Below are positions 4,798 through 34,569 of a DNA stretch of 64,000 nt, piece after piece. The DNA is from Profundicola chukchiensis (GTDB lineage Bacteria; Bacteroidota; Bacteroidia; Flavobacteriales; Weeksellaceae), in NCBI RefSeq assembly GCF_029664245.1, contig NZ_JANAIE010000007.1, positions 1 through 64,000 on the forward strand, given 5' to 3'. Every line of letters begins with the position of its first letter. Position 1 is the first letter of the stretch. The position numbers and the translations under genes were made by a program. Under the pieces are notes generated by a model. That model saw nothing but the letters and a program-made list of their open reading frames with translations, did not search any database and was not told where the DNA came from.

Positions 4798-5025
4798 TAC
4801 TCGTGAGCCGCATAACTAAAACGCTTAAAATTACCTTATAATTTAAGTTAAAAAATCATGCATTTAGAACAGTTTTTAGAGTCAAAATTTAGTCTAAAAT
4901 CATTCAAAAAAAGAATAAAATAAAGTCAATTTTAGGTATAAAAAGCTAATAAATTGAGAGAAATCTGCAACGAAATATCAATTAAAAGAGCTTGTAATTG
5001 GAGGGAAATTAGATAATTTCACTTC
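4798..5025. other. AT-rich intergenic stretch with no recognised feature
   Basis: This segment lies between the small membrane ORF and the palindrome array. It is very AT-rich, with several short frames and no signal I can support. The phased palindrome array begins at its right edge. Confidence 0.5.
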
Positions 5026-5144
5026 ATCTGCATGAAAAAATATTCCGTCTAGATGAAAAAATCATTTTATGCGCATGATGTTACAACTTTATGCGCATGA
5101 AATGACTAAAAGATGCGGATGAAAAAGTCAAAAGATGCGCATGA
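5026..5144. repeat. Array of short palindromes phased every 22 bp (island A)
   Basis: The octamer ATGCGCAT (or ATGCGGAT) occurs at 5069-5076, 5091-5098, 5113-5120 and 5135-5142, so its centres are exactly 22 bp apart. One 22-bp step to the left the slot is occupied by TCTAGA (centre 5050.5), and one further step by TTCATCTGCATGAA (off by one base). Most units continue with GA plus A-rich spacer, but spacer sequence is not conserved. The regular phase of two helical turns suggests protein binding along one DNA face. A second array with the same period and octamer is at 34207-34376. Confidence 0.7.
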
Positions 5145-5155
5145 TTTTAGGCAAA

Positions 5156-5578: not shown

Positions 5579-5668
5579 GTCATTTTTCCTAGTGATTGAA
5601 ATACAATAAGTTATGTGTGTTTGTTCTACGGAATTCTATTGAAGAGAATAAAGAGTAAAAAATGAACA

Positions 5669-5724
5669 AACCGAAAACAGAAAACCGAAAACTGAGAACT
5701 GTGAACGGCTAACAGCGAACCGTC
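5669..5724. repeat. Heptamer array, AAC every 7 bp, eight units (island A)
   Basis: From 5669 to 5724 every seventh position starts the triplet AAC, eight times without a gap; the other four positions vary around YGAG (for example AACCGAA, AACTGAG, AACGGCT). The array ends five bases before the stop codon of the minus-strand thioredoxin gene, so it lies in the 3' untranslated region of that transcript, reading as repeated CUCAGUU-like units. Seven is not a codon multiple, so it is not coding. The same structure is at 34473-34549. Confidence 0.75.
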
Positions 5725-33916: not shown

Positions 33917-34206
33917 ATTTCTTTATTTTGCGTCCAAATTTAAGGAATTCGAACTTAATTGCCTAAAAGAGATGAGAGAAAGATTTTAGAAAAAAATGGA
34001 AAGAAGAGTAATGAACTAAAAGTAAAGAAATGAAGAATTCTAAATTCTAAATTTTGAATCGGGTTAAAGTGAAAGGAGAAAGTATATAATATTTCAAGTT
34101 CTAAATGTGCAATTATTCTAGTCGCTAAAGATCTGAAAATCGCGGACCGTTAACTGTGCGTAATTAACCTAGAGCTTTCAACGCTTTACCAAATGGTCTC
34201 ATACAA
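33917..34206. other. Intergenic DNA with no supported gene
   Basis: The first part of the 653-base gap upstream of lpdA holds AT-rich sequence with small direct repeats (TTCTAAA around 34031). A palindrome-like CGGACCG at 34143-34149 and ACCAAATGGT at 34188-34197 lie roughly on the phase of the adjacent array but off by 0.5-2 bases, so I do not include them in it. No frame or RNA structure was recognised; the lpdA promoter must lie here or in the array. Confidence 0.5.
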
Positions 34207-34376
34207 TTATGCGTATAATTAGAAAAAAAGCTCTTGTACTTTTATAAAAAACCTCTTGAGCTTTTCGGAAAAAGCTTTTGAACTTTTTTGAAAAAGCTTT
34301 TGAGCTTTTATTTAGAAGATGCGCATGTTTAAACAAAAAGCTTTTGAGCTTTTTTCTTAAAGATCTAGATCTTTAA
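34207..34376. repeat. Array of short palindromes phased every 22 bp (island B)
   Basis: Eight slots are centred at 34212.5, 34234.5, 34256.5, 34278.5, 34300.5, 34322.5, 34344.5 and 34366.5, exactly 22 bp apart. The slots hold ATGCGTAT, four variants of GCTTTTGAGC (arms AGCT/AGCT in the best), ATGCGCAT, another GCTTTTGAGC, and a perfect 20-bp palindrome at 34357-34376 around AGATCTAGATCT. Most spacers are A- or T-rich. The period and the ATGCGCAT core match the array at 5026-5144. It lies ~290 bases upstream of lpdA, in no gene. Confidence 0.75.
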
Positions 34377-34472: not shown

Positions 34473-34549
34473 AACCGCAAACCGTAAACGTAGAACGGAA
34501 AACTAAGAACTAAGAACTGAGAACTGAGAACTGAGAACTCTGAACCCTA
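34473..34549. repeat. Heptamer array, AAC every 7 bp, eleven units (island B)
   Basis: AAC starts every seventh base from 34473 to 34549, eleven times without a break; the central units are AACTAAG (twice) and AACTGAG (three times), the outer ones diverge (AACCGCA, AACGGAA, AACTCTG). The array ends 20 bases before the stop codon of the minus-strand pseudouridine synthase gene, so it lies in its 3' untranslated region, as in island A. Confidence 0.8.
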
Positions 34550-34569
34550 TACTCTACACCCTAAACCAA

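Follow-up and report, generated by a model that had tools for sequence, protein, structure and literature searches.

Island B, an array of eight short dyads in the genome of Profundicola chukchiensis, is probably a binding array for two sequence-specific HU-HIG nucleoid proteins whose genes lie elsewhere in that genome, a reading drawn from sequence comparison to which we assign a probability of roughly 0.72. We directly observed the array, its recurrence, the adjacency and co-occurrence of such arrays with HU-HIG genes, the match between distal and HU-adjacent motifs of the same genome, and a correlation between the N-terminal loop of the proteins and the inner core of their sites. The window analyzed comprises positions 1–64,000 of contig NZ_JANAIE010000007.1 (assembly GCF_029664245.1, 2.62 Mb, labeled G000 below).

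The dyad centers of island B lie at 34212 + 22k (k = 0–7), confirming the original prediction of eight slots exactly 22 bp apart. In slot order, the cores are TATGCGTATA, GCTCTTGTAC, CCTCTTGAGC, GCTTTTGAAC, GCTTTTGAGC, GATGCGCATG, GCTTTTGAGC, and GATCTAGATC (Table 1, in which the strand of a core dyad is the one that reads with a central TT). Two further elements of the prediction were borne out: the period is kept while slot content changes, with several dyad types sharing one comb, and the ATGCGCAT type of island B is the type found in island A. The array had also been described as one of palindromes, which holds for the 22-bp comb but not for perfect palindromy, since most GCTCTTGAGC-type dyads deviate from it, as a rule by mismatches in one to three of their nine pairs. 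Which HU-HIG paralogue slot 8 belongs to is uncertain. Degenerate 7-bp tandem repeats (AGAACTG / AAACCGA) occur near islands B and A, at window positions 34492–34563 and 5668–5720.

Table 1. Array features of the 64-kb window, and sdaA-linked arrays of genus g20
Feature	Position in window	Strand	Type or remark
Island A, comb of six ATNNNNAT-type dyads in exact 22-bp phase	5020..5147 (centers 5028–5138)	.	Pure HU-HIG #2 type
Island B slot 1, dyad caatTATGCGTATAatta	34204..34221	.	HU-HIG #2 type; matches the quartet type adjoining HU-HIG #2
Island B core quartet, four 18-bp dyads (GCTCTTGTAC, CCTCTTGAGC, GCTTTTGAAC, GCTTTTGAGC)	34226..34309 (starts 34226, 34248, 34270, 34292)	+	HU-HIG #1 type
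Island B slot 6, dyad agaaGATGCGCATGttta	34314..34331	.	HU-HIG #2 type
Island B slot 7, additional core dyad GCTTTTGAGC	34336..34353	+	
Island B slot 8, perfect 20-bp palindrome TTAAAGATCTAGATCTTTAA around AGATCTAGATCT	34357..34376	.	ATCTAGAT variant
sdaA-linked array loci, genus g20			L102, L105, L108, L109, L113, L115, L116, L118, L172, L173, L178, L185

We scored combs by palindromy summed over five centers (and also over seven slots), using dinucleotide shuffles as controls. The best period-22 score in the window was 35 (five centers), at 34278; other periods from 14 to 39 scored at most 29, with the exception of 33, which is 1.5 × 22, and 30 shuffles of the whole window never exceeded 27 (five centers). 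Over seven slots island B scored 48, above every one of 2,000 local shuffles, whose maximum was 36 at period 22 and 41 when all periods from 18 to 26 were allowed. The view that chance cannot easily give such phase thus stands, as neither the 30 window shuffles nor the 2,000 local ones reproduced the island B score. Across ~450 kb of G000 sampled, high comb scores were confined to arrays.

A pattern search of the whole assembly identified the core dyad (AAAAGCTCTTGAGCTTTT variants) in nine arrays, plus scattered single look-alikes. In each array the core fills four adjacent slots, the exceptions being L055, which has a fifth, weaker core slot, and island B, which has an extra core beyond its ATGCGCAT slot. 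The core slots within an array all share one orientation, every interval is 22 bp, and the dyads mostly consist of AAAA, a 10-bp core, and TTTT (18 bp). Across the nine quartets these 18-bp dyads are conserved and the 4-nt linkers vary. The comb is prolonged on both sides of the core quartets by ATGCGCAT, ATCTAGAT, or ATCCGCAT dyads in the same phase: 27 of the 33 #2-type 8-mers lying up to 110 bp beyond the quartets are in phase modulo 22 (p = 5e-31), at a density far above background. G000 additionally contains five arrays purely of HU-HIG #2 type, including island A and the array adjoining the HU-HIG #2 gene.

The genes flanking the nine arrays are unrelated to each other, and on this ground we rejected a single-gene operator, the sdaA arrays of genus g20 described below being a positional exception. 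We likewise rejected a conserved position beside lpdA, since relatives have no array at their lpdA loci. No similarity of array DNA to plasmids was found, and no transposase match was found among the scanned neighbors of the G000 arrays. A search for the exact sequences in other species returned weak matches only, without arrays, besides one two-unit match: a copy with the GCTTTTGAGC core and 22-bp spacing in a Bacteroidaceae metagenome-assembled genome (L050:1375–1407, JAFTSK010000172.1), which lies right after the apparent end of dnaA.

Arrays of this kind recur in other genomes with other cores. Using a core-blind pattern (AAAAS-N8-STTTT three times at 22 bp) across 299 genomes of the family, we obtained matches in 69 genomes and 14 of 33 genera; the same pattern reversed gave only a handful. 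Cores elsewhere include CGTCCGTATC, CGTCGAAAGG, CGTCTTGATG, and CCTAGTGTAC, and arrays mostly have four slots, some three or five. The congeners G001 and G002 lack both pattern-detected arrays and HU-HIG, encoding shorter HU-like genes only. Among 20 loci examined beyond the family, one (L357) has a good quartet and another (L339) a weaker one, thin evidence hinting that the arrangement reaches beyond Flavobacteriaceae-like relatives. L357:1362–1445 (NZ_OY725757.1, Parabacteroides distasonis) is a quartet of the TTTCAC...GTGAAA type and lies upstream of a gene that is annotated as HU family and situated between mutL and rpsL.

In many species of genus g20, including genomes without HU-HIG, a quartet lies just downstream of a gene that we take, from our own reading of its translation at L113, to be the serine dehydratase gene sdaA. 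These arrays occupy short convergent gaps. Among orthologous sdaA arrays the cores change slot by slot and the comb is kept, and a comparison by eye of G321 with G243 indicates that two slots and their linker appear inverted (GATT to AATC).

To relate the arrays to candidate binders we turn to the 127–130-codon genes that recur next to them, which we identified as HU-HIG (PF18291), a HU/IHF-like family of ~128 amino acids with an N-terminal extension. The full-length PF18291 profile matches G000 HU-HIG #1 with 92.7 bits and six other proteins with 74–125 bits, against a curated cut-off of 26.2. HU is generally seen as packing chromosomes with little regard to sequence, and the sites bound by IHF are single and asymmetric. 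The candidate binders appear to share the HU/IHF (DNABII) core, and they differ in an N-terminal extension of ~25 residues absent from ordinary HU and in the apparent private four-site array of each paralogue. In 2017 Burroughs, Aravind, and colleagues reportedly covered the HU-HIG family in comparing the clades of the HU superfamily; we found no relevant paper on HU-HIG function in the literature searched.

A GCTCTTGAGC quartet lies 88 bp behind the HU-HIG #1 gene (G000 C21:420272), and a ATGCGCAT quartet lies behind HU-HIG #2 (G000 C54:217191). Because quartets of both slot types of island B thus adjoin HU-HIG genes, we interpret island B as carrying putative sites of these two paralogues. 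When loci were chosen by the HU-HIG gene alone, 41 of 75 (a few fetched twice) contained a period-22 quartet, and any other period from 17 to 30 gave at most two; none of 29 lpdA loci and one of 68 random G000 pieces did so. In a larger set, 65 of 112 HU-HIG loci had a quartet no farther than 400 bp upstream or 200 bp downstream of the HU gene, and 47 lacked one by these criteria. Two main layouts account for most cases, with exceptions: the array lies upstream of 127-aa genes, often ~110–150 bp before the HU start, or 3 to ~100 bp downstream of 128–131-aa genes. Paralogues within one genome bear different quartets (G133, G073, and G099).

Several HU-HIG loci have further features. Three more HU-HIG genes of G000 (L221, L222, and L223, at C87:138621, C54:234512, and C43:440152) have no 22-bp quartet; inverted units of the AACTCAC...GTGAGTT or AAAGTCC/AAACTC type occur near them with a period of roughly 44 bp. 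In g20 genomes, XRE-type HTH genes occupy the side of the array opposite the HU-HIG gene (L103, L104, L111, L114, and L174), as does a small alkyltransferase-like gene in G010 and G165 (L166 and L163). At four G099 loci (L246, L248, L253, and L255) the flanks of the HU-HIG gene are >99% identical over several hundred bases, which suggests that these regions were recently duplicated or are mobile.

Arrays and HU-HIG genes also co-occur across genomes. In a first set, 25 of the 26 array-positive genomes had a match to the HU-HIG profile (E ≤ 1e-12), as did 3 of the 24 array-negative ones (p = 7.6e-10). After the addition of 29 array-positive genomes, many of which have few arrays, the counts became 41 of 55 and 3 of 24 (p = 3e-7). 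One of the three array-negative carriers, G046, has a CATGCGCATG quartet (L217) that the AAAA pattern missed. Of the 14 array-positive genomes without HU-HIG, some have retained a well-formed array at sdaA, and a resident HU-HIG is therefore not required for every array. When distal arrays were compared with HU-adjacent quartets, the own genome ranked first of 12 in 27 of 42 cases, with 3.5 expected (permutation p = 1e-4); several of the exceptions are in genomes with further HU-HIG paralogues (G313 and G297).

We found that HU identity correlates with quartet similarity (Mantel r = 0.38, p ≤ 2e-4). When a partial test was slid along the protein for 61 pairs, with the remainder controlled, residues 7–24 tracked the inner core best (partial r 0.19–0.22); residues 6–20 gave a permutation p of 3e-4 for the inner-core correlation, and other windows a partial r of at most 0.15. 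This loop–core correlation is modest (partial r ~0.2), and because the compared sequences share ancestry, the p values make the correlations look firmer than they are. Beyond residue 28 the proteins of L133 and L190 do not differ, all their differences lying earlier, and their quartets are of CAACTTGATG and CTCTCGTGTC type, respectively. NPR followed by D/N and L/P accompanies CTTG/CAAG cores in proteins otherwise only ~35% identical, including HU-HIG #1; HU-HIG #2 has DPRDL and a GCGC core instead. In an AlphaFold model of moderate confidence (mean pLDDT 78), segment 7–24 makes up the tip of a hairpin at the N-terminus, between its two strands (8–13 and 24–29). A fold search with the HU-HIG model gave IHF and HU as the best PDB matches, at a weak E of ~0.05, and sequence matches to solved IHF/HU are marginal.

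Free linkers, conserved dyads, HU-HIG adjacency, and co-variation with the HU N-terminal loop together favor protein-binding sites under selection. The argument that a fixed period with changing slots is not operator-like is consequently not supported as the main explanation. The accompanying proposal, a modular array built by unit exchange, gains something from the orthologous arrays that differ slot by slot and the one pair that reads inverted, and is not supported as the main explanation either. A broader reading, which we hold tentatively and at somewhat under even odds, is that Bacteroidota share orthogonal ‘histone plus address’ modules, in which each HU-HIG would have its own 22-bp quartet, diversifying like a specificity library, and mixed arrays would let paralogues share a register to structure the chromosome. 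As part of this reading, the N-terminal hairpin of a HU-HIG protein would read the core of its quartet.

The same observations bear on other explanations. The arrays could be operators of a conventional repressor, such as the product of an adjoining XRE-type HTH gene or another factor, with HU-HIG merely a regulated neighbor. We consider this unlikely: the XRE genes across the array in several g20 genomes and the frequent position ~110–150 bp upstream of the HU start are operator-like, but no XRE gene flanks the HU-adjacent arrays of G000, G146, or G041, one layout places arrays behind the HU gene, the core sequence follows the HU N-terminus and not a neighbor, and array-negative genomes mostly lack HU-HIG.

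A role as hairpins or cruciforms, with adjacent slots folding together as bidirectional terminators or as RNA or single-stranded DNA elements, is in our judgment very improbable. Neighboring slots are frequently exact inverted repeats with a 4-nt loop (L103–L105, L107, and L114), and flanking genes are more often convergent than divergent (some loci, those of G000, were counted twice), as at the sdaA arrays. However, the co-oriented core slots of G000 pair poorly with their neighbors, the arrays gave no match to an Rfam structured RNA above the gathering score, and the strict 22-bp period and the HU-HIG link would be left unexplained. Two of the nine G000 arrays lie between divergent genes, which led us to reject a terminator-only function, and others lie upstream of promoters. 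Given the lean to convergent gene pairs, some arrays may nevertheless have a terminator role.

Least probable of all is an origin as selfish or neutral repeats, either REP/BIME-like or in the form of mobile cassettes, that multiplied through copying and exchanged slots, a view for which the linker sequence common to the pure ATGCGCAT-type arrays of G000, the common flanks and one-slot difference of the L001 and L005 quartets, and the multi-copy HU-HIG cassettes, some with long similar flanks (G099 L246/L248), can be cited, but against which stand the varying linkers, conserved dyads, and uniform 22-bp intervals of the nine core quartets, the persistence of sdaA quartets across several species with altered cores, the co-variation of cores with the HU N-terminus, and the absence of REP hallmarks. 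REP/BIME elements (GTAG- or CGTC-tagged) are tailed stem-loops with 4-nt tags, usually dimers and in many copies, and resemble the arrays as short palindromes in mosaic intergenic clusters, often as inverted pairs (PMC3733652). In contrast, the arrays here are few, keep a strict 22-bp comb with four slots, and are linked to HU-HIG; the AAAA-core-TTTT dyads of G000 carry no GTAG or CGTC tag and lack the features that define REP families (PMC3733652).

Two other known systems invite comparison with the HU-HIG arrays. In ParB-parS, MatP-matS, and similar chromosome-organizing systems, too, a DNA-binding protein of the chromosome has palindromic sites scattered between genes, but the arrays are not members of these systems: the predicted HU-HIG fold differs, the quartets sit on a fixed 22-bp comb, and there are many putatively orthogonal paralogues. 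Plasmid iterons, which adjoin a rep gene, are direct repeats without palindromic structure, with a spacing of ~22 bp set by the helical repeat. The spacing is alike, but the units here are dyads, and no replication initiator was found among the flanking genes scanned.

For HU-HIG binding at these arrays, its cooperativity, the wrapping of DNA, and the biological role, we infer the following scheme from sequence. One HU-HIG dimer would bind each 18-bp dyad, and since 22 bp is about two helical turns, neighboring dimers would sit on the same DNA face and bind together. Four dimers spanning 88 bp would then make up the usual unit, a nucleoprotein patch with bent DNA. Should each dimer introduce a strong bend, like known HU/IHF, the four bends, being in phase, could wrap about one DNA turn. 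In island B, HU-HIG #1 would occupy the core quartet and HU-HIG #2 the ATGCGCAT-type slots. Because the putative sites of both paralogues fall into a single register, HU-HIG #1 and #2 would probably either assemble into a mixed filament or compete for the sites at its edges; the shared register suggests either contacts between unlike neighboring dimers or edge sites that have drifted between paralogues. A quartet adjoining a HU gene may set the expression of that gene (autoregulation), and dispersed arrays such as island B may fold or insulate intergenic chromosomal DNA.

If confirmed, these arrays would represent a new, diversifying DNA-address system in Bacteroidota. Should many Bacteroidota HU-HIG proteins have private arrays, a widespread family of unclear role would gain a candidate site and a direct assay. 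The many natural protein–site pairs, some near-identical save for the N-terminal loop (L133 and L190), could yield a recognition code. An odd repeat would become a hypothesis of chromosome architecture open to testing, perhaps in gut species that can be cultivated as well, such as P. distasonis (L357).
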